A stretch of DNA of 64,000 bases from Planctomycetota bacterium (lineage in GTDB: Bacteria > Planctomycetota > UBA8108 > JACQVS01), in contig JANQLS010000135.1 in the NCBI GenBank assembly GCA_028280485.1, positions 62,001 through 126,000 of the forward strand, read 5' to 3'. Under the pieces are notes generated by a model. That model worked only from the letters and a program-made list of their open reading frames with translations. It searched no databases and was not told the DNA's origin. Positions 28,101 through 56,451 of the stretch are shown here, piece by piece. The translations under genes were made by a program, and so were the position numbers. Every line of letters starts with the position of its first letter. Within the stretch, counting starts at the first letter, position 1.

Positions 28101-28684
28101 AAACTCAAGCCGGCGCCTTGTGGCAAGCCATTGAGTCTTGTGAATTAGAGCAGGAGCAAATCTCTGAAGCTCAAAAAGCCTTCTTGTGGGCCTTTGATCC
28201 TCTGGTCGCAGAAGTGGAAGGTTCCACTCTTTATCACGTGCATCGATTGGATGCTCTCGGACGCCCCCGCGACGATTCAAGAATCAGCGTAATCGAAAAA
28301 CAAGGCTCTGCGAAAGACCTCAATTCACGTTGCGATGAAGACAGCCTTTTAAGTGGAACTAAATGGGGAGTCGTCAAGCGCGGCGAGATCTACTTAGGCT
28401 TGGGACAAACCGACAATCGAAAGATTTTAATTCTTCCCGCGATCGGAGAACGCCCTGAAGGGCATCTACTTCTACTTCACTTGAGTCTCAAGGCCTCACC
28501 CATTAACGAAGAGCGTCTACCCGCACTTTCCATGCTCGGAAATCGATTCGAGAAGTTGAAGATTGCCATCACCGAGCATCACCAATCCTGGGATCCTCAA
28601 ATGTTAGAAGGCATCGACAACGAAACGCTGTTCTTTAAATCACCTGAGGAAGTGGCGGAGGCAATAGAGAAAGTTACGGTTTAG
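25187..28684 (+). CDS. Giant GlmS-like amidotransferase with two SIS domains
   Basis: 1165 residues, nearly twice normal GlmS (about 610). It starts MCGIHGLL, so Cys2 is the Ntn nucleophile; LAHTRWASNG, LNGDIDNY and TTDAKIIPVVI complete the glutaminase domain, which is stretched to about 440 residues by insertions. SIS1 (about 540-690) has AVSQSGTTTDTNC and SVASTKAFYAQ; SIS2 (about 715-870) has GSGSSKVAADEIRIKLSEL and KKHIDL, keeping the Glu and His of the isomerase site. The usual C-terminal Lys loop appears as QAKTVTVG near 957-964, displaced by about 90 residues, followed by about 200 residues I do not recognise. It probably makes glucosamine-6-phosphate, but another sugar acceptor is possible. 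GAGGAT precedes the ATG. Confidence 0.85.
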   Translation: MCGIHGLLTSKTPFSSPTQRLQPEKFFNQLSQILTYSSDNLLSEALSTDLKNLQSQCQLWVDKDGFLLLSEDEELRNQLQQYVHELEGWTSKLEQEAQSGEWKNQSSVEQLNELILLSSDLTWTLKWDALANLERVFNLLNSQAACPQARTHAWSLNIILNGIDRLEVRGRDSAGIAVYAHFEDSTSLEQFISELSDQTEWAQQFIERLSLKGLTQGTIVRPESSPSTLLFTFKTAEEVGKMGDNVNTLRDLITTDPIFQKVIRFPKVQIQALAHTRWASNGIVSLENCHPVDSALIDEQQAIVRGGELVAVLNGDIDNYQELCQKYISSTAFEFESSITTDAKIIPVVIDAYYKETGDFEKAFLKAFSEFEGSMAIGVMAAHHPGKILFAQKGSGQGLYFGFGQSTTAVASEMYGLVELTPTYFKAEGERSEQGEIFVVKQHDTKTRTRFLCEYVTTEIPEDRVQKAEITTRDINRGDYPHFLLKEVTESVSTVRKTLRGRFENPQDSEPTFNLGAEVLDPDRLKQFCQGKIRTIQVIGQGTAAIAGDGIARLIKSALANSKHPIEVVSQKATELSAHGLRDDMSDTLIIAVSQSGTTTDTNCTVDLVRERGAWVLGIVNRRNSDLVYKSHGVLYTSDGRDIEMSVASTKAFYAQNVVGEILALALAQAIGSLTSSQLKRRLNSLECLPQAMEQTLTLSDSIYEIAQQFAPRKKYWAMVGSGSSKVAADEIRIKLSELCYKSIASDFTEDKKHIDLSSEPLILVCASGVQEELISDLVKEVAIFKAHQSIPIVITTQGESRFNPYASGIVAVPKIDGELGYLLSTMVGHLFGYHAACSFDHHADTLRHIRSGLAQARSQQTGQTFSFESLELADEWLSQAHELRNLLLDGSLDSCLDPGTATRLALLLQAALSRTPFELPASIVPVTNSETLVEALLDVTSQAIHELARPVDAIKHQAKTVTVGISRGESKTQAGALWQAIESCELEQEQISEAQKAFLWAFDPLVAEVEGSTLYHVHRLDALGRPRDDSRISVIEKQGSAKDLNSRCDEDSLLSGTKWGVVKRGEIYLGLGQTDNRKILILPAIGERPEGHLLLLHLSLKASPINEERLPALSMLGNRFEKLKIAITEHHQSWDPQMLEGIDNETLFFKSPEEVAEAIEKVTV

Positions 28685-28716
28685 TAGTCGGCTCGATCCG
28701 CGAGTCGTATCGGAGC
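28682..28716 (+). repeat. Stop-codon repeat F, copy 1
   Basis: TAGTAGTCGGCTCGATCC followed by GCGAGTCGTATCGGAGC. Its first TAG is the stop codon of the GlmS-like gene. Other copies at 44342, 44770 (inverted), 55839 and 56451 (inverted). Confidence 0.85.
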
Positions 28717-28757
28717 AGATAAGTTGTGCTTGGAGAGTTCACTTCAAGAACTAATTA

Positions 28758-28833
28758 GTTCCTGTTGAATAAACAGGAACCAAGCCGAGTTGGGATCAAC
28801 TCGGCCATGAATAAAGACCCTAGGTCTTTATTC
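28758..28833. terminator. Three consecutive perfect hairpins
   Basis: GTTCCTGTT/AACAGGAAC (28758-28780), GCCGAGTTG/CAACTCGGC (28784-28805) and GAATAAAGACC/GGTCTTTATTC (28809-28833) follow each other with three-base gaps. No clean U-tract, yet this is the likely transcript end of the GlmS-like gene. The rest of the 350-base gap holds repeat I and one family E arm. Confidence 0.6.
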
Positions 28834-28880
28834 CATTATTACTGCGTAGGAGCGAAAATCCTATGTTTAGCGGAGTGAAA

Positions 28881-28937
28881 GCAAATCGGAGATTTGCTGG
28901 ATTGGTTGAATCTTCCTCCGAAGGAGCAAGATTCAAC
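28881..28937. repeat. Two-hairpin repeat I, copy 1
   Basis: GCAAATC/GATTTGC (28881-28897) followed by GTTGAATCTT/AAGATTCAAC (28905-28937) with CTCCGAAGGAG in the loop. A second, less perfect copy lies at 32624-32680. Confidence 0.8.
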
Positions 28938-28994
28938 AAAAACTAATTAAGGTTTTCTCGAAGTTCCTCTATAGCCATTAAATGAAATCACCAA

Positions 28995-29024
28995 CCCTCC
29001 AAGCCCGAAGCTTTAGCGAGGGAT
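28995..29024. repeat. Single arm of repeat family E
   Basis: Thirty bases identical to one arm of the 19670-19752 inverted repeat. It ends ten bases before the stop of the minus-strand dehydrogenase gene. The second arm is missing here. Confidence 0.85.
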
Positions 29025-29034
29025 AATCGATCCA

Positions 29035-30114
29035 TCAAGGCTTAATCACCACCTTGATCGCTTCTTTTCGGATCATACTTCTCAGGGCTTCTTCCACTTG
29101 AGAAATAGGCAGGGTCTTTGAGAGTAAGGCTTCTGACGGAAAATTGGGGTCGGCTAAAATGTCTAAAGACCGCCTTACGGTGTCGGGGCGATGATGGTAG
29201 ACGCCTTTGAGGGTGATTTCACTGTAGTGAACTAAGTGGGTGTCAAGTTCGATAGAGGTTCCAGGAGCGCAGCCTCCGAAGAAATTAACTAAGCCTCCCG
29301 CTTGGACACATTTCAATGCATCCGACCACACTTCGGGTACGCCTGTGGCTTCGACGACTACTGGAGCTCCTTCACCCCCTTGGGTTCTTTGACGAGCTCT
29401 CTCCCATTGCCCACCTCCTCGTTCAATTTGAATCGTTTCACTCGCCCCAAAGGTTTTACCAAGTTCCAAGCGATTAGGATTTGGATCGGCTAAGAGCACG
29501 CGGCAACCTTCGCGAGCTAAGACACCCACAAAGAGTTGGCCGATGGGGCCACCTCCGAAGAGAAGCACTTCGGCCGGGCCTTGTTGGCGATAGCGGTCGA
29601 GATCTAAGGCATCGACGCCGTGAAGGACGCAGGCTAAAGGCTCGGTTAAGGAAGCACGCTCGAAGGAAAGTTCATCGGGAAGAAGGTGAGTGTTCTTTTC
29701 TTGAAATCGAGCTGGGACTTTGAGGTACTCAGCGAATGCTCCGTTGAGATAATGCAGATCTTCACAAAGATTTTCCCTTTGGATCAAGCAATACTTACAT
29801 GTTCCACAAGGGGCGGAGTTGGCGACGACCACGCGATCTCCGGGTTTGAATTTAGTAACTTCGGGTCCGACCTGAGCGACCGTTCCTGCCATTTCATGAC
29901 CAAACAAGGTGGGGACTTTGAGCATGCGAGGATGCCCCCCTCGTTTGAAGACTTTTACATCGGTTCCACAAGTGGTGGCGGCTTCGACTTTCAACAAGAA
30001 CTCGCCCGGACCGACTTCTGGCACGGGGACTTCTCGGATTTCGATGTGTTCCGGCCCTAATAAAACGGCACCTTGCATGTTGGATGGAAGAGGGGTGTTC
30101 AATGGAGACCTCAT
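29035..30114 (-). CDS. Zinc-dependent medium-chain alcohol/polyol dehydrogenase
   Basis: 359 residues. MDR fold: catalytic-zinc Cys in TTCGTDVKVFKRGG, GHEMAGTVAQVG, four structural-zinc cysteines in CGTCKYC and the following ENLC, and Rossmann GGGPIGQL. It resembles sorbitol/threonine dehydrogenases and the group used on sugar alcohols or sugar acids; substrate unknown. It follows a second dehydrogenase of the same family on the same strand with only 10 bases between them, so the pair probably forms a two-step oxidation route. The start ATG lacks a good ribosome site, which suggests translational coupling. Confidence 0.88.
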   Translation of the reverse strand: MRSPLNTPLPSNMQGAVLLGPEHIEIREVPVPEVGPGEFLLKVEAATTCGTDVKVFKRGGHPRMLKVPTLFGHEMAGTVAQVGPEVTKFKPGDRVVVANSAPCGTCKYCLIQRENLCEDLHYLNGAFAEYLKVPARFQEKNTHLLPDELSFERASLTEPLACVLHGVDALDLDRYRQQGPAEVLLFGGGPIGQLFVGVLAREGCRVLLADPNPNRLELGKTFGASETIQIERGGGQWERARQRTQGGEGAPVVVEATGVPEVWSDALKCVQAGGLVNFFGGCAPGTSIELDTHLVHYSEITLKGVYHHRPDTVRRSLDILADPNFPSEALLSKTLPISQVEEALRSMIRKEAIKVVIKP

Positions 30115-30124
30115 CGGTGAGATA

Positions 30125-31186
30125 TTAGGGATCGGGATAATAAACGACTTTGAGGGCTTCTAAGTTTCGACTCAGTTCGATGCCCTTATCGAATTCACTG
30201 AGAGGGAATTTATGAGTGACTAAGGGGCGAGGATCGAGTCGGCCCGAGGTTAAAAGGTCGAAAGTCTTTTCTTGTTCCTTCAACGCTCCAGAATAAGTGG
30301 AGAGGATTTTTATTTCATACTTGAAGGCTCGGTTTAAATCAAAATTAGCTCGTTCGCCTTCTTTGGCGTGAGCGAAGAGAACGATGCTTCCGCCTTGACG
30401 CAACATATCGAAGGCACTGTTGAGTAAGGTCGCTCCTCCGACGGTGTCAAAGATGGCATCGAGCCCGAGGTCGTTACTCAGTTGTTGAGCCTTCGCTTTT
30501 GCTTCTGTTCCTGGAGCGACTGCGACACTGGCGCCAAGAGATAGAGCGAGCTCCCGGCGATCGGGTTTGGGATCAACGATTAAGATTTGAGCCTCTGGCT
30601 CTAAGGCCTTGAGGACCAAGAGGTGGAGTAGCCCCATGCTCCCGCCCCCGAGAATTCCTATTCGTGAATCTCGCTTTAAGTCGATTTTTTCAATTCCTCG
30701 GAGTACGCAGGCAGCTGGTTCTAAAAAGATGGCGGAAAGATCATCTAAATCATCCGGGCAACGTTGCGCAGCGTACTGAACGGCCCGCGGGCGAAGTAAG
30801 ATGTATTCAGAAAATCCACCGGGAATGAGAAGGTTTTCACGAAAGACATCGCAAAGGGTTTCACTCCCTCTTAAGCAGAGGGGGCACTCACCGCAGGACA
30901 CGTGGTGGGGGACAACCAACCGATCACCCGTCTTATAATTCTCAACTTCTTCTCCAACGCTGACGACTTCACCCACCAGCTCATGGCCAAGAACCATTCC
31001 ATCGGTCGTCGTTTGATTTGCTAACTTAAAAAGATCCGTCCCACACAAGCCCACCCAGCGAAGCTTCATAAGAAGCTCATCGGCTTGAATTGAAGGAGTT
31101 TCAACCGATTGAAGCTGGGTATTGCCGAAGCGGTCACACACGATGGCTTGGTGAGACGCTGGGGAGGGATTTTGCCGAGTGTTCAT
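30125..31186 (-). CDS. Zinc-dependent medium-chain dehydrogenase, second of a pair
   Basis: 353 residues from ATG 31186; a TTG at 31195 would add three residues. Hallmarks: GLCGTDLFK, GHELVGEVVSVGEEV, the structural zinc cluster CGECPLC and SETLC, Rossmann GGGSMGLL. Only moderately similar to its neighbour. It lies 15 bases after the DUF2017 gene stop, so the run clpS-DUF2017-dehydrogenase-dehydrogenase may be one transcript. Substrate unknown; sugar alcohols, threonine-like hydroxy acids or sugar lactone precursors are candidates from the family. Confidence 0.86.
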   Translation of the reverse strand: MNTRQNPSPASHQAIVCDRFGNTQLQSVETPSIQADELLMKLRWVGLCGTDLFKLANQTTTDGMVLGHELVGEVVSVGEEVENYKTGDRLVVPHHVSCGECPLCLRGSETLCDVFRENLLIPGGFSEYILLRPRAVQYAAQRCPDDLDDLSAIFLEPAACVLRGIEKIDLKRDSRIGILGGGSMGLLHLLVLKALEPEAQILIVDPKPDRRELALSLGASVAVAPGTEAKAKAQQLSNDLGLDAIFDTVGGATLLNSAFDMLRQGGSIVLFAHAKEGERANFDLNRAFKYEIKILSTYSGALKEQEKTFDLLTSGRLDPRPLVTHKFPLSEFDKGIELSRNLEALKVVYYPDP

Positions 31187-31201
31187 ATCGGGCAACTGAA
31201 T

Positions 31202-31939
31202 TTAGGTGGGTTTATTTTCTTCAGGATCATCGGATGGTTCGTCGTCGAAGGGAGAGAAGAAAAAATCGTCTTCGCCGTCGTCATCGTCATCATCGTCGTC
31301 GTCGTCATCATCATCGCCCGAGAGATCGTACTCTTCAGAAATCTCTTTTAAGAACGGGAGCTCTCCATCTTCCGAGAGCCCTTTTAAGACCTCTGCCATG
31401 TCGAGTTCTTTAGGAGCGCCCAAGCCTTCAGCTTCTCTTAAGCCCCGGATGACCGCGCCTTCAAGTTGGGCGATGCGCTCCATGAGAATAATTTCATCTA
31501 AATGAGGGGAGTCCTCATCGATGTCTTGATTCCAGTCATCATCTTCGATTTTTAAATTAGTGCCGATCAGGATTCTCAGGTCGTGAAGAAATCCTAACCA
31601 CATCGAGAGGTCTTCATCGGTGAGACTGATGTGAAGAATTTCGACTTCTTCGCTTTCAGCGTGGATCGATTCACTCTGGGCGATGTTTTCTTCGAAGCGA
31701 TTGAGGCAATCCATTTTCCCTTTGAGGATGTCTTCTCGCATGAGGCTTTGGTATTCGGCTTCAGCGAGTGGGTCCTTTCGGTAACCTTGAGGGAAGAGAG
31801 CTTGACCGAGTTCACTTTCAAAGTCGGGATTTTCTAATACTTCTCGAAGTTGCTTGGGAAGGGCTTTGAGGTCGAAATCTTCATCGACTAAGACGAGAAT
31901 GGCCCAACCGTTTTCCCCTTCTCGAGTCATCCAGATCAT
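31202..31939 (-). CDS. DUF2017 family protein with poly-Asp tail
   Basis: 245 residues, very acidic. The family pattern is clear: LGQALFPQGYRKDPLAEAEY, MREDILKGKMDCL and DLSMWLGFLHDLRILIGTNL. DUF2017 genes stand beside clpS mainly in actinobacteria, and here too the gene directly follows clpS, so a part in ClpS/Clp-dependent proteolysis is a fair inference. The C terminus (about 212-232) holds a run of 13 aspartates encoded by a GAC/GAT microsatellite at about 31280-31319, then an acidic end. A strong GGGAGG site lies upstream. No enzymatic motif seen. Confidence 0.82.
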   Translation of the reverse strand: MIWMTREGENGWAILVLVDEDFDLKALPKQLREVLENPDFESELGQALFPQGYRKDPLAEAEYQSLMREDILKGKMDCLNRFEENIAQSESIHAESEEVEILHISLTDEDLSMWLGFLHDLRILIGTNLKIEDDDWNQDIDEDSPHLDEIILMERIAQLEGAVIRGLREAEGLGAPKELDMAEVLKGLSEDGELPFLKEISEEYDLSGDDDDDDDDDDDDDGEDDFFFSPFDDEPSDDPEENKPT

Positions 31940-31995
31940 GATTTTTTAACCTCCCAATTTAAGGGGAGGAACATCTTATTCATTTCGAGCATCCT

Positions 31996-32391
31996 TTATT
32001 CTTCTGTTTGCTCGAGGCTGGCCTGGAGACCGAAACCGTGGAGGCGAGAGACGTAGTACTCAGCTTTTTCACGGTCTACAGTGGTGACGATCGATCGACC
32101 CCTTTGGTGAACTTCCAACATCAATTGGGTGGCTCGTTCTTCTGAATAACCAAATAGCTTTCTGAAAACATAGACGACATAATCCATCAGAGTGATGGGG
32201 TCGTTCCAAACGATGACGTTCCAAGGGCGATCTAATGCCGTTTTCGAAACGGTTTCGGGGCTTGTTGATTCGCCCGGGTCCGCTGAGCCCTGAGGGGCGA
32301 AGTTGCCCATCAGCAGTTCTTCAGAAGGAGAATTCACTTCCTCAGTGTTGGAATCAATGAAATTTAGGGGGTCGTTCTTTAATGTCGTCAT
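31996..32391 (-). CDS. clpS: ATP-dependent Clp protease adaptor ClpS
   Basis: 131 residues from ATG 32391. The core at about 47-128 is standard ClpS: RPWNVIVWNDPITLMDYVVYVF holds the N-degron pocket Asn and Asp, then LMLEVHQRGRSIV and AEYYVSRLHGFGL. It delivers N-end-rule substrates to ClpAP or ClpCP. The N-terminal 45 residues are an unusually long, Ser/Pro/Glu-rich extension; in ClpS this region enters the Clp pore. First gene of the likely clpS-DUF2017 unit. No clpA or clpP in the window. Confidence 0.94.
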   Translation of the reverse strand: MTTLKNDPLNFIDSNTEEVNSPSEELLMGNFAPQGSADPGESTSPETVSKTALDRPWNVIVWNDPITLMDYVVYVFRKLFGYSEERATQLMLEVHQRGRSIVTTVDREKAEYYVSRLHGFGLQASLEQTEE

Positions 32392-32706
32392 TCTCAAAAG
32401 GTGGAAAGTCAGTTAGCTCCTGAAATCTTCATATCGGGTACCGAATCTTAGGGCTACTCTACGCCATCTCTACTCTTCAATTTAACTTCTAAATCAAAAC
32501 TAAGCTGGGTCCCTATCTTACGTTCTTCCGATCGCCGAGAAAAGAGGGCAAGTGGATATTTAAGTTCAAAGCACTTTATTTTAAACTAACTCTCCATTCA
32601 GTTGGCTCTTACTGAAAATATTAACAAATCTATGATTTGCTGGATCGGTTGAAACGGGCTCCGAAGGAGCTTGATTCAATAAATATTAAATCGAAAGCGA
32701 ACCCCA
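32392..32706. repeat. Divergent gap with repeat I, copy 2
   Basis: About 310 bases between clpS (-) and the transporter gene (+). Copy 2 of repeat I occupies 32624-32680 and keeps the loop CTCCGAAGGAG. No promoter could be assigned with confidence. Confidence 0.65.
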
Positions 32707-34272
32707 TTGACTGAGCTTCCTCCTACTGAACAAACATCGAAGTTTCCACCTAGGAAGCTAATTTTTATTATCTTAGGGATCCTTCTGGCTGTCGTTATCT
32801 TTAATATCGATAGCCCTCTCCAAGATTTTTCTTGGACGGATGTCGATGGGAATACCCAATCTTTTGGATCTCGTCCTGCTTTCGCGGCTGGAATTGGGCT
32901 TCTCATGGCGTTTCTTTGGATTACCGAAGCGATTCCGATTCATTATACCGCCTTGCTACCTCTTTTGCTTTTTCCGATCTTCGGAGTCTTCGGAGAGTCC
33001 TTTATTCAGTCGAATTGGACGGCTCTTAAACCTTATTTAAATTCTTTTAACTTTTTATTCTTGGGGGGAATGGGAATCGCTGCCGCGATGCAGCAATGGA
33101 ATTTGCATCGACGGATCGCATTAAAAATTTTAAGCCTCCTCGGCACTCGCCCTTCCAAAATTCTATTAGGGATGATCCTCGCCACTGGGTTCATCTCAAT
33201 GTGGATTTCAAATACGGCGACCGCGGCGATGATGCTTCCAATCGGTTTAGCCATCATCACTCAGATTGAACACCAAACGGGGGGGAAGAGATTAGATTAC
33301 TTCGGGGGAGCTTTGATGCTCGCCATCGCTTACGGTGCGAATGTAGGAGGGATGGGAAGTAAGATCGGTACGGGACCTAATGTGGTTTTTTGCAGTCAAG
33401 TCTCGGATCACTTGGGACGAGATATTACCTTTTTAGAGTTCTTCAAAATTGGACTTCCGTTCATGGTGGTTTTCTTGCCTCTGATTTGGCTTGTCCTTTG
33501 GATTTTTGGGCGAAGGGATGCCCCTCAAGAAGACATGGGCGCTTCCGTGATCCGAAAGCAACTCGCCGACCTGGGGAAGATGAAGCTCGGGGAGAGAATC
33601 GTTGCGACGGTTTTCGTTCTTACTTGCGTTTCGTGGATGTTCAGTAGTGGTATTCATTATTTGACTCAAGATCTTTTCACGGAACCGATGCAACAAATCG
33701 GACTTACTTTTAAAAGTAAACACATCGAGGCTTGGGCAGCGATTTTAGCTTTTTTAAGTCTGATGGTGATTCGGGTAAAAAGGTCACCTGAAGAGGCTTC
33801 GACGGTTCCCACTTTGAAGCTCACTCAATTGAAGGTGATTCCCTGGTCAACCTTAATTCTCCTGGGGGGTGGGTTCTCATTAGCTGCGGGAATCAAGGCG
33901 AGTGGCCTATCCTACTGGTTGGGAGATGGTATGGCGACCCTTAAAGATTATCCCCCGATGGTTCAATTTTTAGGGATCACCACGTTGACAATCTTCTTCG
34001 GTGCTATCGCCAGTAATGTTGCGACGACCCAAGTGATGATGGTGATTTTAATCGGTGCGGGGATGCAAGATGGAATGGCTTTGATGGGCGCAGCCGCCTT
34101 AGCAGCCAGTTGTGATTTTATGCTCCCAGCGGGTACTCCACCCAACGCGATTGTATTTGGAAGCGGTTATTTGACTGTGCCTCGAATGGCGAGCACGGGT
34201 TTCGTTTTGAATGTCGTCGCCGCGATATTGTTGGGGCTGTGGGGGTATTTTGGGATCAGGGCGGTGCTTTAG
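32707..34272 (+). CDS. DASS/SLC13-type sodium-coupled anion symporter
   Basis: 521 residues, about 11-13 membrane segments. Typical of divalent anion:Na+ symporters (dicarboxylate, sulfate or phosphate): SNTATAAMMLP carries the SNT sodium-binding motif, with a second one in ATTQVMMVILIG and the PAGTPPNAIVFGSG segment near the end. It starts at TTG 32707, because the next Met is after the first membrane segment; no good ribosome site is visible. The last codon is followed by a TAG that is also the first bases of repeat block C. Close sulfate-assimilation genes lie 6 kb away, but there is no direct link. Confidence 0.88.
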   Translation: MTELPPTEQTSKFPPRKLIFIILGILLAVVIFNIDSPLQDFSWTDVDGNTQSFGSRPAFAAGIGLLMAFLWITEAIPIHYTALLPLLLFPIFGVFGESFIQSNWTALKPYLNSFNFLFLGGMGIAAAMQQWNLHRRIALKILSLLGTRPSKILLGMILATGFISMWISNTATAAMMLPIGLAIITQIEHQTGGKRLDYFGGALMLAIAYGANVGGMGSKIGTGPNVVFCSQVSDHLGRDITFLEFFKIGLPFMVVFLPLIWLVLWIFGRRDAPQEDMGASVIRKQLADLGKMKLGERIVATVFVLTCVSWMFSSGIHYLTQDLFTEPMQQIGLTFKSKHIEAWAAILAFLSLMVIRVKRSPEEASTVPTLKLTQLKVIPWSTLILLGGGFSLAAGIKASGLSYWLGDGMATLKDYPPMVQFLGITTLTIFFGAIASNVATTQVMMVILIGAGMQDGMALMGAAALAASCDFMLPAGTPPNAIVFGSGYLTVPRMASTGFVLNVVAAILLGLWGYFGIRAVL

Positions 34273-34541
34273 GGGCGTCCCTTGTGGGCGCCCGTTCCCC
34301 AAAACGATGCGGATTTCTTCAAGGTTGATATTCCATTTAGGGAATTGGGCAGGGGCGAGCCCTGCCCCTACAGATGGGATGCTGATTAATGCTTTCAACT
34401 TAACTAGCCCGAAGCGCTAGCGAGGGGTGTCCTCCCTTCGGACAGGCACGATCTTTATTTAAGTCCTTAGTACTCAGAATTACCGATTTGCTTCGCATGG
34501 CTCGAAGGTCGAGCCTGCCACTAACACTTCGGGCTAGTTAA
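34270..34541. repeat. Composite repeat block C
   Basis: A truncated GTAGGGGC-type unit begins at the transporter stop codon TAG (34270) and ends with GCCCCTAC at 34371. A 28-base arm (34400-34427, core CGAAGCGCTAGCGAG) and a partial opposite arm CTTCGGGCTAGTTAA (34527-34541) follow. Same family as blocks A, B and D. It fills the convergent gap up to the MFS gene. Confidence 0.9.
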
Positions 34542-34596
34542 GAGGTTCGTACCCGTTAGACGTGAATCCATTTATAGGTTTGAATGACCTTGCCGC

Positions 34597-35886
34597 CTAC
34601 CTCTCCCGGTACAAAAACGCAAAGATCGCTGCAAATGTCGCTAAGGTCATCATCGGAGTGGCAATAAGGAATACACTGGAAGTTGAAAAGCCTTGGTTCA
34701 TCAACCAAGGTGCGAGGTAAGTTCCTGTCCCTCCAACGGCGAAGACTAAAACAAATTTTAAACCGTAAACGCTCCCTCGCCATTGAGGAGGAGAGTAATC
34801 AGCGATCAAAGTGTTCTCGATGGGTTGAACGGCGAAGAAGAATATCGATCCGAGGCAAGCCATCGCTACTAAGGGGGCTCCCGATAAAAAGGCGAGGATC
34901 AGTACGGATGGAATGATCAAGAAATAGTTGATCATGTAGAGGCGAAGTTTCTCTCTTTTGTCAGCCAAATACCCGGCAGCAAACTGACCTAAGATACCAA
35001 AGGTCAACACCAAGGCTGTGAGAGCACCGCCGAGCTTTGCTTCTTGACTTCCCTTTTGCTCGGCCGAACTTTCAGTGTTTGACTCTGGAGTCACCGAGGA
35101 ATCCACCGTCGTGTTTTCTTGAGGTGTCAAGTGAGAGGGGAGGGTCGTGGTATAGACGTGATAAAACACACCGCCACAAGTCATGGCTAATAGAAGCAAG
35201 GCTAAGATGATGACCTTGCTTCGCTGAAGCTTGGGGGGAGGAGCGATCTCGCCGTTTTGTTGTCGTTTTTTCTTGGGAAACGCGGCCGGCCCTAAATCCA
35301 TAAAGAGGAAAACGACAGTAAAGACTAGGGTGAAGCCGGCCACACTAAAGTAAGCCCATCTCCAAGTGGTATCGGTGCTAAAGAAGCTAGCCAATAGGGG
35401 TCCCAAGGCCGTTCCTAGACTTCCGGCAATGCCGTTGATTCCCATCGCCATGCCTTTTTTTTCGACTCCTTTGGAGATGAGTGAAGTCCCCACGGGATGG
35501 TAGATGCTCGTCGCCAGACCCAATATGACACAACCGACCGTTAAGACTTGCCAGGATTCACTGAATCCGATGATTGTTCCTCCGAGCGCACAACCCAAGA
35601 AGAAGAGTATTAAGAGTAACTTTTCACCGAATTGATCGCTGAGCCAACCAGCGGGAATCGAACCCACTCCAAAACAAACTCCCAAGATCATGAAGTAGAA
35701 GGCGGCTTGTTCCCGGGCTTCTTCCTCTCTCCCGATACCAAAGTCTTCCGCTACTAAGAAATCAGTTCCGATTAGAACAAGTAACGATACGTGAAGAATG
35801 GTAAAGACATGAGTCAGCACATGGGCGACACAAGTCGCCGCCATGATGGTGAAGGTGTAATTCTTCGCTGGCGGGGAATCGCTCAC
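34597..35886 (-). CDS. MFS transporter
   Basis: 429 residues from GTG 35886, which overlaps the end of the upstream ptsP-like gene (GTGA). Twelve membrane segments with the MFS loop motif GWLSDQFGEK between TM2 and TM3 and GYLADKREKLR in the second half. The central cytoplasmic loop and a Ser/Thr/Glu-rich extracytoplasmic loop (about 255-285) are long. Substrate unknown; resemblance to FSM/fosmidomycin-resistance or nitrate-type carriers is only general. Cotranscription with a PTS Enzyme I homologue hints at regulated sugar or nitrogen uptake. Confidence 0.85.
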   Translation of the reverse strand: MSDSPPAKNYTFTIMAATCVAHVLTHVFTILHVSLLVLIGTDFLVAEDFGIGREEEAREQAAFYFMILGVCFGVGSIPAGWLSDQFGEKLLLILFFLGCALGGTIIGFSESWQVLTVGCVILGLATSIYHPVGTSLISKGVEKKGMAMGINGIAGSLGTALGPLLASFFSTDTTWRWAYFSVAGFTLVFTVVFLFMDLGPAAFPKKKRQQNGEIAPPPKLQRSKVIILALLLLAMTCGGVFYHVYTTTLPSHLTPQENTTVDSSVTPESNTESSAEQKGSQEAKLGGALTALVLTFGILGQFAAGYLADKREKLRLYMINYFLIIPSVLILAFLSGAPLVAMACLGSIFFFAVQPIENTLIADYSPPQWRGSVYGLKFVLVFAVGGTGTYLAPWLMNQGFSTSSVFLIATPMMTLATFAAIFAFLYRER

Positions 35887-38186: not shown

Positions 38187-38337
38187 TTGTGGATAATTTA
38201 ATGGTTTAGCTCAAGAGTCTCGAGGCAGTCAATGTGCTGGAATTCATCGAAGAACGCAAGCATGAAAATCTACGACTCGTTGAGATCCACAATTATTTCC
38301 ATTCATCTCGGGGGAAAGGAGCCGATCGTTGGAATTT

Positions 38338-39971: not shown

Positions 39972-40002
39972 CCAAAGCCTGGCGGCTTTGGCTACACCTC
40001 AT
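39961..40002. terminator. 19-bp perfect palindrome shared by two convergent gene ends
   Basis: Arms ATGAGGTGTAGCCAAAGCC (39961-39979) and 39984-40002 pair perfectly around TGGC. Each arm contains the last codons GAG-GTG and the stop TAG of one gene, so the plus gene and cysH both end in Glu-Val-stop. It likely ends transcription in both directions despite having no U-tract. Confidence 0.75.
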
Positions 40003-42775: not shown

Positions 42776-44344
42776 ATGCAAATTCTATCTAAGTATTCAC
42801 CGTGTCTCTCAATTGTTGTGGGCTTCATATTGGCATCTCTTTTCTCCGTTAGAGCCGCCGATCCTATTCTTCCTCCAGCTCCGATGAAGGTGACGGAAAC
42901 CTATCAAGCTGGTTATGAGGCCATCGATATCGATGAAATAAAAACCTGGATCAAGTTTCTTTCAGCCGATGAACTCGAGGGAAGGGCCAGTGGAGAACCC
43001 GGGTACGATGTTGCGGCTCGGTTTTGCGCAACCCTGATGGAGCACTACGGAGTGAAGCCTTTCGGGGACTCCGGGAAGAATGGAAGAACTTTCCTTCAAA
43101 AGTTCAATCTGATCCAAAGAGAACGCGACTCCGATAAGGGAGACCTTACTCTTAAATTAGGTGAGAAGTCCGTCCGCTTGAAGATGGCCGATGATTTTGT
43201 TCCTCAATCGGGAAAATGGGGAAGCTACGAATGGGAAGGACCGGTCGTCGCTTTACGTATCGCTAAAGGGGTGAAGGCTGACATTCCCAAGCTTTTGAAA
43301 GAAGCTCAACTTGAGGGGCACTTGCCGATCCTCTTCTTAGAGAACGCGCGGCACAATCTCAAACAATTAGGTTATTTGGACCCCTCTAAAGCGAAGGCCA
43401 TCGTCGTAGCCGATCATTATTTCTTTCGAAACAAGCGTCTGAGAACGGGAAAGACCCCTGAATATTTAGAATCTGAGCGGATGCCCAATGTGGCTTCGGA
43501 TGTCACTTTCGTCAGTAACAGAGCGGGTGAGAAACTTCTAAAGCTTTTAGGAAAAAAACGAGAAGAACTTTCCACTGAAAAATCGATCAAAGCTCAAAAA
43601 GATCTTTCGATTAAAGTGAATGCCCTTACGCATAGGCATGTTTTTCCTACGAGTAATGTTGTGGGGATTATCGAAGGGAGTGACCCGGTTCTTCGCAAGG
43701 AGTATGTCGCGATCGGAGGCCACCTTGATCATGTACCCAATAGTCGGGATGGTCAAATTCACAATGGCGCAGATGATAATGCTTCGGGTACAGCCGCAGT
43801 ACTCTCGTTAGCAAAAGCCTTCAATGTCCTTAAGAAGAGGCCCAAGAGAAGTATTATGCTTCTCCTTTGGGGAGCGGAAGAAATGGGCCTATTGGGTTCG
43901 GGTCACTTTGTTGAACACAGCCCAGTACCGATGAAGCAATTCGTCACCTATCTCAACTTAGATATGATCGGCCGTGATGAAACTCGCCCCGGAAAAGATC
44001 GCCCTGAAGACAATCGGAACTCGGTGAATCTCGTCGGTTCTCGGCGCTTTACTTGGGATCTTCACCAATTGATTTCGATTCAAAATAAAATGGTGGGCCT
44101 CGATTTGGAAGACGACCAAGAAGATGTCTTCTACCGAAGTGATCAGTATCATTTCGATCGTAAAGGTGTTCCGGTTATTTTCTTTTTCGCCGGCTTCCAT
44201 CCCGATTATCACACGCCACGAGATACGTACGAAAAACTGAACTATCCGAAAATCACCCGGATCGCCCGCCTCTGCTATCTCATCGGCCATAAGGTTGCCA
44301 ATCAAGATGGACGCTTTAAGCGCGATAAGCAACAGGCGTTTTAG
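42776..44344 (+). CDS. Secreted M28-family zinc aminopeptidase
   Basis: 522 residues with a signal peptide (LSIVVGFILASLFSVRAAD). The peptidase domain is in the second half with all dinuclear zinc ligands: His in IGGHLDHVP, Asp in NGADDNASG, catalytic and ligand Glu pair in LLLWGAEEMGLLGSGH, Asp in LNLDMIGRD and His in PDYHTPRDTYE. The region before it (about 150-270) is a PA-like insertion as in many M28 enzymes. It would trim peptides outside the cytoplasm; the oligopeptide importer that converges on it could take up products. Its stop codon TAG begins a repeat F copy. Confidence 0.92.
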   Translation: MQILSKYSPCLSIVVGFILASLFSVRAADPILPPAPMKVTETYQAGYEAIDIDEIKTWIKFLSADELEGRASGEPGYDVAARFCATLMEHYGVKPFGDSGKNGRTFLQKFNLIQRERDSDKGDLTLKLGEKSVRLKMADDFVPQSGKWGSYEWEGPVVALRIAKGVKADIPKLLKEAQLEGHLPILFLENARHNLKQLGYLDPSKAKAIVVADHYFFRNKRLRTGKTPEYLESERMPNVASDVTFVSNRAGEKLLKLLGKKREELSTEKSIKAQKDLSIKVNALTHRHVFPTSNVVGIIEGSDPVLRKEYVAIGGHLDHVPNSRDGQIHNGADDNASGTAAVLSLAKAFNVLKKRPKRSIMLLLWGAEEMGLLGSGHFVEHSPVPMKQFVTYLNLDMIGRDETRPGKDRPEDNRNSVNLVGSRRFTWDLHQLISIQNKMVGLDLEDDQEDVFYRSDQYHFDRKGVPVIFFFAGFHPDYHTPRDTYEKLNYPKITRIARLCYLIGHKVANQDGRFKRDKQQAF

Positions 44345-44377
44345 TAGTAGGCTCGCTCCGCGAGTCGTATCGAAGCG
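44342..44377 (+). repeat. Stop-codon repeat F, copy 2
   Basis: TAGTAGTAGGCTCGCTCC followed by GCGAGTCGTATCGAAGC. The first TAG is the stop of the M28 gene. Confidence 0.88.
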
Positions 44378-44405
44378 AAAAAGTTTTACTACAACATATG
44401 ATCTT

Positions 44406-44446
44406 AAAAAAAAGGCTGAGCTTGCAAAGAAAGCTCAGCCTTTTTT
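44406..44446. terminator. Bidirectional rho-independent terminator
   Basis: GGCTGAGCTT (44414-44423) and AAGCTCAGCC (44431-44440) with an A-run before and six T after. It ends the M28 transcript and could also stop the minus-strand dpp/opp transcript. Confidence 0.92.
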
Positions 44447-44513
44447 CGTGCGAATGTTAGTTACTCATTTGGATCTGTTGTGATCCTGAGTTCTTTTCCT
44501 CTAATTTAGCTTA

Positions 44514-44626
44514 GTGCCGCCCTTACAGGGCTCAGCGTACTCTAACATTCAAACCCAGGGCGGCGCTTCGCTCTGCCCTGGGCTATAAAGTTTCGGGCTT
44601 TCAGCCCTTGGGGGTCTCCGTTCCGA
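44514..44626 (-). repeat. Repeat G, copy 1
   Basis: About 113 bases, inverted relative to 56113-56226. Shared parts include the palindrome CCCAGGGCGGCGC/CTCTGCCCTGGG, GGGCTTTCAGCCC, and TAAGGGCGGCACTA. The remainder up to 44732 shows only a CGAGCGATCC/CGTCGCTCG hairpin. Confidence 0.85.
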
Positions 44627-44734
44627 CAGCTCTTGTTATGAATCCCGAGCGATCCGTCGCTCGAAGGATTGACGAGTAAAGATACGGTCGATAGTACGTA
44701 AATTTTTATTGAGCTAAATTTCATCAATTGAACG

Positions 44735-44770
44735 GATTCGCTCCGTACGACTCACGGAGCGAGCCTACTA
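44735..44770 (-). repeat. Stop-codon repeat F, copy 3 (inverted)
   Basis: On the minus strand TAGTAGGCTCGCTCCGTGAG then TCGTACGGAGCG. Its first TAG is the stop of the dppF-like gene. With copy 2 it brackets the whole convergent gap. Confidence 0.88.
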
Positions 44771-46761: not shown

Positions 46762-46766
46762 CGACA

Positions 46767-49036: not shown

Positions 49037-49129
49037 GGTGATCTACTGTTGAAGGTTGCAGGTTGAATACTCCAGAGTGGAGTGGTACGAACGAAAAGCC
49101 CCAATTAGAGAGGGCACTGGAGAAAGGGC

Positions 49130-51274: not shown

Positions 51275-51557
51275 AGAGCTGCTTATCGTCCCCGAAATGA
51301 TGACTGGATTAAGAATGGAAAACCTAATTCAGCAGAAACTAATTTGTCTTGAGATGAAACCCTGATGGATCGGTTGAGAGCCTGGAGTGTTGATCCGGGA
51401 GCCTCCGATCCATAGAATCAGAACACCCTAAACGAAGAACTTCGATTTGGATACCGTAAATTACGGTGGATATCGAGACCGAACTAGATCCCAGTAGGGA
51501 GTCCTCTAGTGAGTACTGCTTATCCCTTGTTTTTATTCAATTTTCCCCGAGAAAAAT
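51275..51557. other. Divergent gap oppA / quinone oxidoreductase
   Basis: 283 bases. Holds the palindrome at 51453-51467 and, around it, GGATA/TATC; no other structure seen. Confidence 0.5.
51453..51467 (+). promoter_or_regulatory. Operator-like palindrome
   Basis: ACCGTAA-A-TTACGGT, perfect 7-bp arms with a one-base centre, about 90 bases upstream of the quinone oxidoreductase start. Its size suits a dimeric repressor; the regulator is unknown. Confidence 0.45.
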
Positions 51558-52535
51558 ATGAGAGCCATCCTCGTCAAGAGTCCAGGTGGAGTTGAAGAAT
51601 TAGAAATCAGCGAGCTTCCCGATCTCTCCCCGGGGCCGGGCGAGGTCGTGGTGCGCAATTTTGCGGCTGGGATCAACCGTGCCGATCTCCTTCAGCGACG
51701 GGGGCTTTACCCTCCTCCCAAAGGGGTGACAGACGTCCTCGGGCTGGAGTTCGCAGGTGAGGTGGAGATCATCGGTGAGAGGATCGAGGGAATCGAAGTG
51801 GGAGACCGAGTTTGCGGACTCGTTCCGGGAGGGGGTTACCAGGAGCAAGTTTTGACTCGGCCCGAGCTTCTCGTTCCTATTCCGGATCATTTTTCTTATG
51901 AAGCAGCGGCAGCAGTTCCTGAGGCATTTATGACAGCCAGTGAAGCATTGTTTCATTTGGCTCAACTGCGGCCCGATGAAAAAGTCTTAATTCATGCTGG
52001 TGCCAGTGGTGTCGGAACAGCTGCAATTCAGTTAGCGAAAAGTGTAGGAGCTCAAATTGCCGTAACTGTTTCAAATTCTGAAAAGGCGGAGTATTGTCGA
52101 TCGTTGGGTGCCGATCTGACGATTTCATACTTAGAAGAAGATTTTCAAGAACAGATCCAAGCCGAGTGGGGTTCTCATAGCGTCGATGTGGTCTTAGATT
52201 TCATTGGGGCCAAATACTGGGAACAAAATCTAAAGTGTTTGAAGTTCGGGGGGCGTTGGTTGGTGTTGGGGCTTCTGGGAGGGAATCGGCTTGAAGTCGA
52301 TTTAGGTAAGATCTTATTTCAACGATTAAAAATTTTGGGCTTAGCGATGCGGGGTCTTCCACTTGAAGACAAAATTCGTATCACCGAAACCTTTAAGAAA
52401 GTTCAATTGCCTCTCTTTGAAGATGAAACTCTGAAGCCCATCATCGACCGAGTGTACCTATTTGAAGAAGTCCAAGAAGCTCACCGGAGAATGGAAGCGA
52501 ATGAGAATAAGGGGAAGTTGATCTTAAGATTCTAA
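51558..52535 (+). CDS. NAD(P)H:quinone oxidoreductase, zeta-crystallin/PIG3 type
   Basis: 325 residues, cytoplasmic, zinc-free MDR. Seen: GINRADLLQRRGLYPPPKG and VLGLEFAGEV at the N terminus, Rossmann motif HAGASGVGTAAIQLAKSVGA, SNSEKAEYCRSLGAD for NADP, and the C-terminal HRRMEANENKGKLILRF. The NRADLLQR-GLYPPP signature is that of PIG3/TP53I3-like quinone reductases. A perfect operator-like palindrome lies upstream, so stress-induced expression is plausible. Confidence 0.92.
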   Translation: MRAILVKSPGGVEELEISELPDLSPGPGEVVVRNFAAGINRADLLQRRGLYPPPKGVTDVLGLEFAGEVEIIGERIEGIEVGDRVCGLVPGGGYQEQVLTRPELLVPIPDHFSYEAAAAVPEAFMTASEALFHLAQLRPDEKVLIHAGASGVGTAAIQLAKSVGAQIAVTVSNSEKAEYCRSLGADLTISYLEEDFQEQIQAEWGSHSVDVVLDFIGAKYWEQNLKCLKFGGRWLVLGLLGGNRLEVDLGKILFQRLKILGLAMRGLPLEDKIRITETFKKVQLPLFEDETLKPIIDRVYLFEEVQEAHRRMEANENKGKLILRF

Positions 52536-52551
52536 GTTATTTTACAAAACA

Positions 52552-52693
52552 TTAACTAGCCCGAAGCGCTAGCGAGGGGAAGCGTCATCATAAGAAACTA
52601 CTGATGGGCATGGTTTTTTAGATAGTTGATGTGTTTTTTCCAGCCATAAAACAATTTCGCTAGGTCCCGTCGCTTACACTCCGGGCTTATTAA
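52552..52693. repeat. Repeat block D
   Basis: One good 28-base arm of family A (52552-52579, core CGAAGCGCTAGCGAG) and a decayed opposite arm around 52660-52693 (CCGTCGCTTACACTCCGGGC). It lacks the GTAGGGGC unit. Fills the convergent gap. Confidence 0.8.
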
Positions 52694-52709
52694 TGGGCTT
52701 ATGAGTTCA

Positions 52710-53195
52710 TTAACGATTGTCCCAGCTATCATCATCATTCGAGCTGCTGGTGATTTTTTCAAAGCTGAGCTGGGCGTGTCGAGCGAAGGCATCGATGATC
52801 CCCACGGGTAAGGTCACGGGGAGCGTTAAGATCGTAGGAAACCAACTCACTTCTTCGCGGTACAGCGCACGAATTTCTTTTGTTTCGAATTCCAATTTTT
52901 CACTGTGATGTGCGGGGCGCCAAAATTTTCCGGAAGAGTACACTGCTGGCCAGCCCGAATACTGAATTTCCCAGCTTCCCCCATCGAAGACACAGGGTTG
53001 ACAGATGATTTTTTGGCTGCTGGCGTGCCCGGGGAGCACTTGAGCTCTCACGACTTTCGCGTTGTCTAAAACGATTTCGCAGATGACCGGTTCTTCAATT
53101 TTTGTTAGTTCCTCGGGAATGATCGACCGGCGGGAGTAGCAACCCCAGGAGGTGGTGAAGGCCAATAGAAGTAAGAGCGAGGATAAGAGCTTCAT
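52710..53195 (-). CDS. Small lipoprotein of unknown function
   Basis: 161 residues. Signal peptide of lipoprotein type with hydrophobic LLSSLLLLLAFTTSWGC and Cys19 as the lipidation site. The rest has beta character (IVLDNAKVVRAQVLPG, WPAVYSSGKFW) and a second hydrophobic stretch (PTILTLPVTLPVGIIDAFA) near 120-140. It ends in a Ser/Asp-rich tail. I do not recognise the family. AGGTAG lies six bases before the ATG. Confidence 0.8.
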   Translation of the reverse strand: MKLLSSLLLLLAFTTSWGCYSRRSIIPEELTKIEEPVICEIVLDNAKVVRAQVLPGHASSQKIICQPCVFDGGSWEIQYSGWPAVYSSGKFWRPAHHSEKLEFETKEIRALYREEVSWFPTILTLPVTLPVGIIDAFARHAQLSFEKITSSSNDDDSWDNR

Positions 53196-53245
53196 CGGTA
53201 GCTACCTAAATGCTGATTTTCAGAACGTCATTTTCCAATGTTATT

Positions 53246-53310
53246 GTAGCCGAATTCGTAAGAATTTGGCCACCAAACGTATCCAGCCAAACTTTTACAA
53301 GTTCGGCTAC
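53246..53310. repeat. Imperfect inverted repeat J
   Basis: Arms 53246-53270 and 53286-53310 match at 21 of 25 positions (GTAGCCGAA ... TTGGC). The outer 14 bases ACAAGTTCGGCTAC also occur at 1694-1707, two bases after the stop of the Tat-exported isomerase gene. Repeat-like element in the divergent gap. Confidence 0.75.
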
Positions 53311-53437
53311 TAAAAACACCAAAGTTTTTATCGAAGAGTTCATCGAAATCGTTAGAGTATTGAATTCTTTACTGACCGAGAACTTCTCACGAGCGGTTAC
53401 AAATTAATAATTTAGAGTAATTAATCTCCTCCACCCC

Positions 53438-54679
53438 ATGGAACAAGCGGCGACCGAGATCCCCACAACCCACAGCTCTCCGCCTACGATGAGGGCCTTA
53501 TCGATCGGCATCATCTTTCAGTATGCCGTCGGTGGAACTTTTATGCCGTTATTGGTTCTCTTTTACCGAGATCGAGGACTGACTTACCAAGAGGTGGGAT
53601 TCGTTTATATCGGTATTTCGGTGGTGATGGCAGCTTGCCCCATCCTTTGGGGAGCCTTAGCTGACCGCAATATCCCCGTGAATCGATTGATCGTTGCCCT
53701 TCACATCATCGGTGCCTTGTGTCTGGTGTTCTTGTCGTTTCAAACGAGCTTTTGGGGGATGGCTATCTGGTCGGCTTTGTGGTTTGCGTTTGGCATGCCG
53801 ACCAACGCGCTTTTTAATGCACTCAGTTATCACAATTTGAAATCACCGAAAACCGAGTTCGGATTCATCCGCATGTGGGGCTCCTTCGGTTGGATGCTGC
53901 CATCTATCGGTATTTGGGCGTGGATGCAATACCAACAAGATGTGAAGTTGTCTTCGGTGATCCTCAGTGCGGCCTTCGTCGAAGCTCTTTTCATTCCAAT
54001 CGCCTGGATCCTTCCACACACACCTCCATCGAGTCGGGCGATTTTTGAAAAAGTAGAATCCTTTAAATTTTTCCAAGGAGTGCAAACCTTATTGAAGACT
54101 CCGGGATTCTTTCTGCTCCTCATCTTGAACTTCTTTATGTTTTGGTCATTCACCGTTGCGTTTTATTACTCCGCAGTCGAATTGGAGGCTGTCGGTATCG
54201 CTCGGAAGTGGCTGCTCCCCATTCAATGTTTGGGGCCGATCGCTGAAGTGCCGTTGTTCTTTTTTCTCAGAGGGATCCTTAAAAAGTACGGGGTGATCTC
54301 TTGTCTTGCGGCCGGAGCATTGTCGATGGTTGTTCGCCATCTTATTTTCTGTGGCGGAGCCTCGCCGATTTGGTTGATCTTGAGTTTTATTTTGTTAGGT
54401 GTGTCCGTAGTGCTTTATTTAATTCCGGTGAGTCTGATGATCGACGAATTAGCTCCCAGAAAAATTCGAGCGACGGCTCAAGCGATGTTGCTGATCTTCG
54501 GACCGGGCTTGGGAAGTTTGATCGGACAACTTTATTCGGGTTGGCAAGCGGATCAAAGTGGGGGCAATTTACGGGAAATATTTCTCGTGGGGGCTCTAAC
54601 GGCAGCGCTGGGAATGTTGATCGTTTTCCTGACGGGTTGGATACAACGACGAGCTTCCTTAAAATCCAGCGTTTCTTAG
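53438..54679 (+). CDS. MFS transporter, nucleoside/sugar:H+ symporter-like
   Basis: 413 residues, twelve membrane segments. The first half carries LYYRDRGL-like FYRDRGLTYQEVGFVYI and GALADRNIPVNRL, the second FGFIRMWGSFGW, all typical of the MFS_1-like/NupG-LacY branch. The C-terminal half has ATAQAMLLIFGPGLGSLIG. Substrate not determined. No ribosome site of note. Followed by the DUF3500 gene after 124 bases. Confidence 0.86.
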   Translation: MEQAATEIPTTHSSPPTMRALSIGIIFQYAVGGTFMPLLVLFYRDRGLTYQEVGFVYIGISVVMAACPILWGALADRNIPVNRLIVALHIIGALCLVFLSFQTSFWGMAIWSALWFAFGMPTNALFNALSYHNLKSPKTEFGFIRMWGSFGWMLPSIGIWAWMQYQQDVKLSSVILSAAFVEALFIPIAWILPHTPPSSRAIFEKVESFKFFQGVQTLLKTPGFFLLLILNFFMFWSFTVAFYYSAVELEAVGIARKWLLPIQCLGPIAEVPLFFFLRGILKKYGVISCLAAGALSMVVRHLIFCGGASPIWLILSFILLGVSVVLYLIPVSLMIDELAPRKIRATAQAMLLIFGPGLGSLIGQLYSGWQADQSGGNLREIFLVGALTAALGMLIVFLTGWIQRRASLKSSVS

Positions 54680-54803
54680 GGATGAATTTTTGATCCTTCC
54701 TCTATGCCTCGGCCTTGACTGTGGGGTATCATGAGGGGATTCCAGAATGATACTCATTCGTTAATTCTTCTTTACCTCAAACTCCTAACCTGTAGGTGTT
54801 GTT

Positions 54804-55841
54804 ATGAATGATACTCCACTGAATCTCTCCTCAGACGATCGCAGATCTGAAGTGAAACGTCGTCAGTTTATCAAAACCGTAGGTGGAGTGGCCGCCGCTA
54901 GCAGCTTGGGATCCTTGCCCATCATCGGTTGGGCGAACGAGGAAAAATCGAAGAAGAAAAAGACTAAAAAGAAAACCGCCGAGAACTACGTTCATTATCT
55001 CTACGACAGCTTAACTGAAAAGCAACGGGAGAAGATCTGCTTCGATTTTGATCATAAGCTTTCAAAGAAGGTTGCCAACAACTGGCATATCGTGCCTCAA
55101 CGCATCGGCGACTTCTTGAATTCGGATCAACAGGAATTGGTTCGAAAAATTCTTCAGGGAATCACCTCTGAAGATGGTTACGAACGTTTCATGAAGCAGA
55201 TGAAGGACGATGACGGCGGATTGAATCGATACTCGTGCGCGCTCTTTGGTGATCCTGAGAAGAAGAAGTGCCAGTTCGTTTTAACCGGAAGGCACACCAC
55301 CCTGAGAGCCGATGGCAACAGCGTTGCGAACCAAGCCTTGGGCGGCCCCATCTTTTATGGTCACGCCGTTTCTGAAACCGAGCGACCCGACCACAAAGGC
55401 AATGTTTGGTGGCACCAAGCTAGAGCCGCTAATAAGCTTTACAAAGCTCTCGATGGCAAGCAACAAGAGAAAGCACTTCTCTCGGGGCGGGCTCCTGCCG
55501 ATTCAGCCAGTACTGTAAAGTTTAAAGCCAACCCCGATGCGATTCCCGGTCTGGCGGGGAGTGATTTGAGCAAAGACCAAATGAAGTTGCTCGAAGAAAC
55601 TTTGAAGGGATTGGTGAACATGTTCCGCAAGGAAGATGTCGAAGAAGTGATGACTTGTCTCAAGAAGAACGGTGGCTTAGAGAAGGCCAAGATTTCTTAT
55701 TACAAGCAAATGGACCTCGGTAAAGATGGAATTTGGGATCGATGGAAAGTCGAAGGGCCCGCCTTCATTTGGTACTTCCGCGGTTCCCCTCACGTTCACA
55801 CTTGGGTGAATATTGCCCATAAGGGCCGGACGGAGGTTTAG
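54804..55841 (+). CDS. DUF3500-family Tat-exported protein
   Basis: 345 residues. Twin-arginine signal at about 19-45 (KRRQFIKTVGGVAAASS, ending IIGWANEE), followed by a lysine-rich stretch (KSKKKKTKKK). The DUF3500 region has LTEKQREKICFDFDH, RYSCALFGDPEKKKCQFVLTGRHTTLR and the C-terminal GPAFIWYFRGSPHVHTWV with conserved histidines that may bind metal. Biochemical function of the family is unknown to me. AGGTG precedes the ATG; the stop is the first TAG of repeat F copy 4. Confidence 0.85.
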   Translation: MNDTPLNLSSDDRRSEVKRRQFIKTVGGVAAASSLGSLPIIGWANEEKSKKKKTKKKTAENYVHYLYDSLTEKQREKICFDFDHKLSKKVANNWHIVPQRIGDFLNSDQQELVRKILQGITSEDGYERFMKQMKDDDGGLNRYSCALFGDPEKKKCQFVLTGRHTTLRADGNSVANQALGGPIFYGHAVSETERPDHKGNVWWHQARAANKLYKALDGKQQEKALLSGRAPADSASTVKFKANPDAIPGLAGSDLSKDQMKLLEETLKGLVNMFRKEDVEEVMTCLKKNGGLEKAKISYYKQMDLGKDGIWDRWKVEGPAFIWYFRGSPHVHTWVNIAHKGRTEV

Positions 55842-55852
55842 TAGTAGGCTCA
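55839..55852 (+). repeat. Stop-codon repeat F, copy 4 (short)
   Basis: TAGTAGTAGGCTCA, after which the similarity stops. The first TAG is the DUF3500 stop codon. Confidence 0.7.
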
Positions 55853-56048
55853 GCAATATTGGTCCCGGCTGCACGCCGCTCTATCGTGCAAGTTCGCCAT
55901 TGGCTCACGCACTCCCAAAGACCACCCAGCCCTTCGTGCTGGTGGCTTTGATGGTAAAGATGAGTCGATCCATTCAATAGTAGTCGACTTACCCCGTGAG
56001 CCGGGATCATAAAGAATACAACGTTAATTTGTATCTCAAATAAAACAG

Positions 56049-56085
56049 CCCCGATTCACCTCAGATCTCAAGAGGTGAATCGGGG
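56049..56085. terminator. Bidirectional hairpin terminator
   Basis: CCCCGATTCACCTC (56049-56062) and GAGGTGAATCGGGG (56072-56085), perfect 14-bp stem, with AAAACAG before and TAGTTTT after. Confidence 0.8.
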
Positions 56086-56112
56086 TAGTTTTATTTATGA
56101 GGCCAACGCCCA

Positions 56113-56226
56113 TTGGAACCGAAGTTCCCAAGGGCTGCAAACCCGTCACTTTATAGCCCGCGGCAGAGCGAAGCGCTGCCCTGGGTTGAATGAGGCAGAG
56201 CACTGAGCCCTGTAAGGGCGGCACTA
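56113..56226 (+). repeat. Repeat G, copy 2
   Basis: Inverted counterpart of 44514-44626; both contain CCCAAGGGCTG, TTTATAGCCC, GGCAGAGCGAAGCGC, GCCCTGGGTT and CTGTAAGGGCGGCACTA. Followed by a GGATGGCCGCAGG/CCTGCGG hairpin (about 56295-56325) of family H and another GCGAAGCGCCGCCCAGGGC stretch. Confidence 0.85.
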
Positions 56227-56419
56227 CCTTTTGAACTCCGAAATGATGAGTTCGACCAGGAATGGTTCTATTATGTGCGATTGATGGGCGTCGCAAGGGA
56301 TGGCCGCAGGCGGAGCCTGCGGACTACCTTAGCGAAGCGCCGCCCAGGGCTAAAGAGAGCGTTGATCAAGGTCAACTAGTGTAATGTCGATTAATCTTCG
56401 ATTGAAAACGATAATCCTT

Positions 56420-56451
56420 GCCGTACGACTCGCGGAGCGAGCCGACTACTA
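56420..56451 (-). repeat. Stop-codon repeat F, copy 5 (inverted)
   Basis: On the minus strand TAGTAGTCGGCTCGCTCC then GCGAGTCGTACGGC. Its first TAG is the stop of the gene at 56449-57426. Confidence 0.88.

Follow-up and report, generated by a model that had tools for sequence, protein, structure and literature searches.

This analysis indicated that the repeats found at gene ends in a 64,000-nt stretch of a Planctomycetota bacterium genome (assembly GCA_028280485.1, contig JANQLS010000135.1, positions 62,001 to 126,000; the whole stretch is called the window below) are repetitive extragenic palindromes (REPs) of the GTAG class, with a GTAG end, a short GC-rich stem-loop, a high copy number and a mostly intergenic location. 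They probably persist, many of them as head-out pairs, where the TAG in the head replaces the native stop codon of a neighboring gene. The pattern is real and its class is known: Di Nocera et al. (2013; PMC3733652) already noted in print that GTAG REPs frequently supply flanking open reading frames (ORFs) with their TAG stop, and that O. terrae and R. baltica carry several REP families (this and the other articles given by PMC number are cited for the passages drawn on here). What is added, and was not found in those passages, is the strict bias toward one reading frame, the controls, the test of protein C-termini and the exceptions seen in one family, family E; numbers and controls now stand behind what was a one-sentence remark in 2013.

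The repeats of the window belong to a family, hereafter family A, with four full matches to TAGTNGGCTCGNTCCGNGAGTCGTA in the 64,000 nt and none in 100 shuffles. The preliminary description of this DNA had counted five copies, each beginning with two or three TAGs at the in-frame stop codon of a gene. Four of these are full copies, the fifth (55839+) being a 14-nt head (TAGTAGTAGGCTCA...) from which the hairpin is absent. The exact string GGCTCGCTCC is present in three of the four, the copy at 28682+ differing from it and reading GGCTCGATCC; it also matches at 14611-, outside the four family A matches. At all five places the neighboring gene does end, in frame, at the first TAG (Table 1), and the copy at 44770- holds two TAGs, not three. 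The pair 44342+/44770- sits between two convergent genes, both of which terminate within it.

The source genome assembly (9.37 Mb in 205 contigs, 91% complete) holds 155 copies of family A with at most three mismatches, a reversed control giving none, together with the sister GTAG-headed families B (GTAGTAGGCACACG, 172 copies), C (GTAGTCCGCA, 192) and E (GTNGTCGGCTCACCCC, 126), as counted with the mismatch limits used. Family A had no copy in 39 other genomes (one from its taxonomic family and the others sharing its order, class or phylum), and the exact 25-mer was absent from a contig-record collection from which the source genome itself is possibly excluded. About 100 of the 155 family A places were listed and 112 copies with at most three mismatches were pulled, weak copies being under-represented. 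The frame table, based on a 26-base pattern beginning at GTAG and without the copies lying less than 300 nt from a locus start, contains 117 family A copies; family A covers 88 loci, some of them overlapping, and both ends of a pair are counted separately. The 71, 56 and 50 copies analyzed for B, C and E come from 30 fetched places per family and from copies found within other loci. Family A proved mostly intergenic: among 122 copies, only that in L069 is overlapped by a predicted gene and only L047+ is entered by a gene frame, according to a simple codon score. An inverted partner (at most seven mismatches) was found within 600 nt for 66 of these 122 copies, pairs being counted from both sides, and many head-out pairs measure about 155-165 nt, or more where other repeats lie inside. 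Of the 112 copies, 111 have the G and 106 the A directly before TAGT. Next to the head, pairing rules give a GC-rich stem of 6-7 bp that includes a G-T pair.

The coincidence with stop codons was evaluated by asking whether a coding frame of at least 40 codons, recognized by a codon score with 31 window ORFs as its training set, continued without a stop as far as the G of GTAG, and which frame it was. Such a frame reached the head in 34 of 117 copies of family A, 13 of 71 of family B, 9 of 56 of family C and 1 of 17 of family F, in all cases in the frame that reads TAG. Family E had 12 open frames in 50 copies, eight of them in the TAG frame and four in other frames, while family D, which has a GTGG head, had none in 17. 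The six families (328 copies) thus give 65 copies in the TAG frame versus 4 in another frame. Family D was considered as a natural control and is not used as proof: its count is 0/17, but its copies in L039, L041 and L043 directly follow another REP. A same-strand coding stop lay within 400 nt of 67 of the 117 family A copies, in the head itself in 34 (28 at TA|G and 6 at G|TAG) and 4 to 329 nt ahead of the copy in 33, so that the copies with a nearby coding stop divide about equally between those placed exactly at it and those scattered beyond it. The statement that every copy starts at an in-frame stop therefore applies to the five places in the window and, genome-wide, to 34 of the 117 analyzed copies. 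A scatter of copies past stop codons, named in the preliminary description as grounds for giving up its idea, is thus seen in part, for 33 of the 67.

At the edges of three unrelated palindromic repeat families, taken on both sides, no stop coincidence was found (0/242), nor was any found for genes entering from the tail side of the REPs (0/309). Of the site-orientations of non-coding TA dinucleotides, 2.5% in the window and 1.3% in the loci correspond to a gene stop, versus 29% for the family A head. TAG is not a rare stop codon here, since it ends 17 of the 46 predicted window genes, the others using TAA (19) or TGA (10).

The scanned host proteins mostly end at normal C-termini. Eighteen of the 74 host proteins, hand-picked as likely to belong to a protein family, were scanned with profiles. 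In 11 of them (four DUF1501 proteins, MnmA, an E2 acyltransferase, a MacB-like permease, an SDR protein, a SEC-C protein, OppF and a thioredoxin), the match ended at most nine positions from the end of the profile and at most six residues from the protein's own end, several of the NCBIfam matches being below the curated cut-off. Two hosts (peptidases C26 and M28) have a nearly complete domain followed by a 22-residue tail, two (SIS/GlmS-like and DUF4272) are uninformative, and three had no profile match.

We favor, as the probable cause, selection against tails added to proteins, operating on elements with a preference for gene ends. An IS200-like Y1 transposase of the REP-associated tyrosine transposase (RAYT) kind would probably have spread family A in trans, and the head at each outer end of a pair contains TAG. 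A gene frame entering as ...T|AG or ...NNG|TAG would stop at once, and the two other frames would run on, for medians of 15 and 18 codons in family A, the same in family B, and 17.5 and 20 in family C. A copy at or next to the native stop in the TAG frame would then replace that stop, leave the protein nearly unchanged and be retained; copies in other frames or inside genes would be lost. Insertion at TAA and TAG stops would come naturally to family A if, as is likely, it prefers T^A. The earlier proposal of a joint stop-plus-3'-end module fits these results in part, as regards the genome-wide coincidence, its single frame and the mostly normal protein ends.

Family E offers a way to tell selection from targeting of stop codons. 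One of its wrong frames meets a TGA in the hairpin after six codons in most copies (within eight codons in 49 of 50), and all four out-of-frame host genes belong to this family, three using the six-codon frame and the fourth having a nine-codon tail. Although the numbers are small, this points to selection against long tails, by which such exceptions are predicted, and not to stop-codon targeting. The odds of selection over targeting were assigned after this tally was known. Several GTAG families that differ in their wrong-frame stops within one genome form a natural experiment, for which selection and targeting predict different outcomes. More tentatively, the outward TAG might be an adaptation of the element, which would settle in the stop codon as in a safe harbor, rewriting TAA or TGA as TAG with the protein unchanged, with a transposase that prefers such sites; a second early stop, such as the TGA of family E, would widen the range of tolerated frames. 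We give this idea a low probability.

Several observations weigh against retention by selection as described above. No open coding frame was present at the head of 83 of the 117 family A copies, and when the boundary is set two bases earlier, before AG, family A gives 33 in-frame genes versus one out of frame (L047+). The C-termini of 80 OppF homologues range from -2 to +58 residues relative to the window OppF, 60 of them being longer. Folded as single-stranded DNA, the family A hairpin is no more stable than shuffles (z -0.81), unlike those of family B (z -2.93) and family C (z -4.76). Joining the flanks of 15 pairs of families B, C and E restored no junction stop, and no family A copy (at most six mismatches) was found in 11 loci with a Y1_Tnp gene, in flanks of about 1.5 kb or less and in an assembly that is 91% complete. 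Finally, selection alone does not obviously account for the excess over random sites, and a preference for gene ends is probably also needed.

Target choice, the strongest of the rival explanations and in our view an unlikely one, supposes that the transposase inserts at a host stop, its target (T^A, or a TAG or GTAG matched via the GTAG guide) being stop-like and the TAG being partly host sequence. The marked enrichment relative to random non-coding TA sites is in line with it, as is the description of GTAG as acting like an IS608 guide, with cleavage at CT and CA (PMC8266576). Of 112 family A copies, 90 have T and 106 have A in front of GTAG, which makes a T^A preference likely for this family alone, judging from its flanks. 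When the flanks of eight simple pairs (157-163 nt, open frame) were joined with the T outside, a stop appeared at the junction in six (five TAA and one TGA) and one codon later in another. This is a weak test, as it depends on the placement of the cut: the same joining restored a junction stop in 8 of all 18 in-frame family A pairs, and a cut directly before GTAG did so in 1 of 14, and in none of the 15 pairs of families B, C and E. A search for empty sites, comparing left flanks with other repeats, gave one useful case, L039, whose flank corresponds to a repeat that reads GCGCT^AGCGAGGGG elsewhere; its right flank had no match in this search, so that T^A and TAG^ are indistinguishable there. 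The pair before GTAG is GG, AG or TG in family B and mixed in family C, and because no TA pair precedes GTAG, their TAG lies wholly within the REP; yet their frame bias equals that of family A, so that insertion into TAG or CTA, one of the possibilities raised initially, is not supported as the general cause. With a T^A target alone, moreover, about one in two TAN codons would give TAA or TAG, and targeting does not predict that out-of-frame cases are confined to family E and mainly to its six-codon frame.

It is very improbable that the pairs are a miniature inverted-repeat transposable element of a DDE transposon with TA target duplication (Tc1/mariner or IS630 type) resembling a REP pair. 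The inverted ends and the common T...A flank of family A would suit such an element, but where the T has changed the A is usually kept, which suggests that the A is element sequence, and the sister families, which have the same GTAG hairpin head, lack a TA flank. Least credible of all, and rejected, is random truncation by elements landing anywhere in genes and shortening them at the first in-frame TAG: some joined flanks do read on without a stop (for example L005, L072, L080 and L057+) and a few hosts may have lost residues, but both the frame counts, far from equal thirds, and the C-terminus scans contradict it.

With regard to the putative transposase, a profile search of the genome gave 11 matches to Y1_Tnp (PF01797). 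One of these genes (C97:9467-9709) has family C REPs on both sides, at 8863+, 8992-, 9924- and 10008-, and family C is thus RAYT-linked, with a cognate Y1 gene flanked by REPs. A RAYT/IS200-like enzyme, which had been proposed as something to look for, was therefore found beside a sister family and not beside family A. Four related Y1_Tnp proteins (YLLTWTTYGTWLPGD...) are encoded in L086, L087, L088 and L092, in whose fetched flanks no GTRG-headed hairpin was found.

These elements can be compared with several known systems. With the GTAG-tagged REPs (PMC3733652) they share the GTAG head, the short GC-rich stem, the high copy number, head-out dimers, a location near gene 3' ends and the supply of a TAG stop; the consensus of family A is GTAGTAGGCTCGCTCCGCGAGTC, and GTAGTAGG had no match in the main text of that article, the comparison covering the main text and not the consensus of its Figure 1. 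As in REP doublets forming hairpins (REPINs) and bacterial interspersed mosaic elements (Bertels and Rainey, 2011), family A has two REPs in inverted orientation, many of them at the spacing given above, and its pairs, known here from sequence alone, appear REPIN-like. The hairpin with a GTAG likened to a guide, and the Y1_Tnp gene among family C REPs, recall IS200/IS605 and RAYT/TnpA-REP systems (PMC8266576, PMC2817692), from which family A differs in that no transposase was found beside it. In E. coli, the distance to a stop codon is at most 15 nt for 446 of 4,072 predicted REPs, and an effect on translation is reported (PMC12306157); REPs there are also close after the stop, whereas here the stop is inside the REP head.

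Table 1. Positions of the repeats in the window and of the stop codons that they contain.
Feature	Position	Strand	Stop codon and gene, or content
Family A REP	28682..28709	+	TAG 28682-28684, stop of SIS-domain (GlmS-like) ORF 26186-28681+
Family A REP, left end of head-out pair	44342..44369	+	TAG 44342-44344, stop of peptidase M28 ORF 42884-44341+
Family A REP, right end of head-out pair	44746..44770	-	TAG 44770-44768, stop of OppF-like ORF 44771-45775-
Head-out REP pair (appears REPIN-like)	44342..44770	.	About 430 nt, other repeats inside
REP head fragment, 14 nt	55839..55852	+	TAG 55839-55841, stop of ORF 54804-55841+ (coordinates include stop)
Family A REP	56424..56451	-	TAG 56451-56449, stop of DUF4272-like ORF 56452-57390-
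Palindromic repeat TTAACTAGCCCGAAGCGCTAGCGAGGGG, examples	17925-17952, 24753-24826, 34399-34428, 52551-52580		

Other features of the pairs and of their surroundings should be mentioned. In L033 and L035 (B after A) and in L039, L041 and L043 (D after A), the first hairpin is directly followed by another REP unit, about 26 nt long, with GAGTCGTA on one side and the inner YGAARCGAAAC on the other, as if tandem insertion of single REPs took place there. Strong terminator-like hairpins with differing stems occur at the same place, 56-71 nt past the head, in a few family A elements (L005, L045, L051 and at about 44410 in the window). A built-in terminator is not supported as a general feature, with such hairpins in 5 of 113 segments versus 0-3 in 15 rounds of shuffling. 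The segment 44512-44624, inside the pair of the window, recurs inverted at 56115-56226. The palindromic repeat TTAACTAGCCCGAAGCGCTAGCGAGGGG is a separate and abundant one, present at many loci, often as inverted pairs and often within REP pairs. In the 832-residue product of ORF 26186-28681, matches to GlmS-type profiles cover residues 7-516 only, and the final 300 residues or so had no match among the listed NCBIfam and Pfam families. At 61919-62192 of the window, a 130-nt unit is tandemly duplicated and adjoins GTAGTCCGCACGTTCCACGTGCGG hairpins of the family C type.

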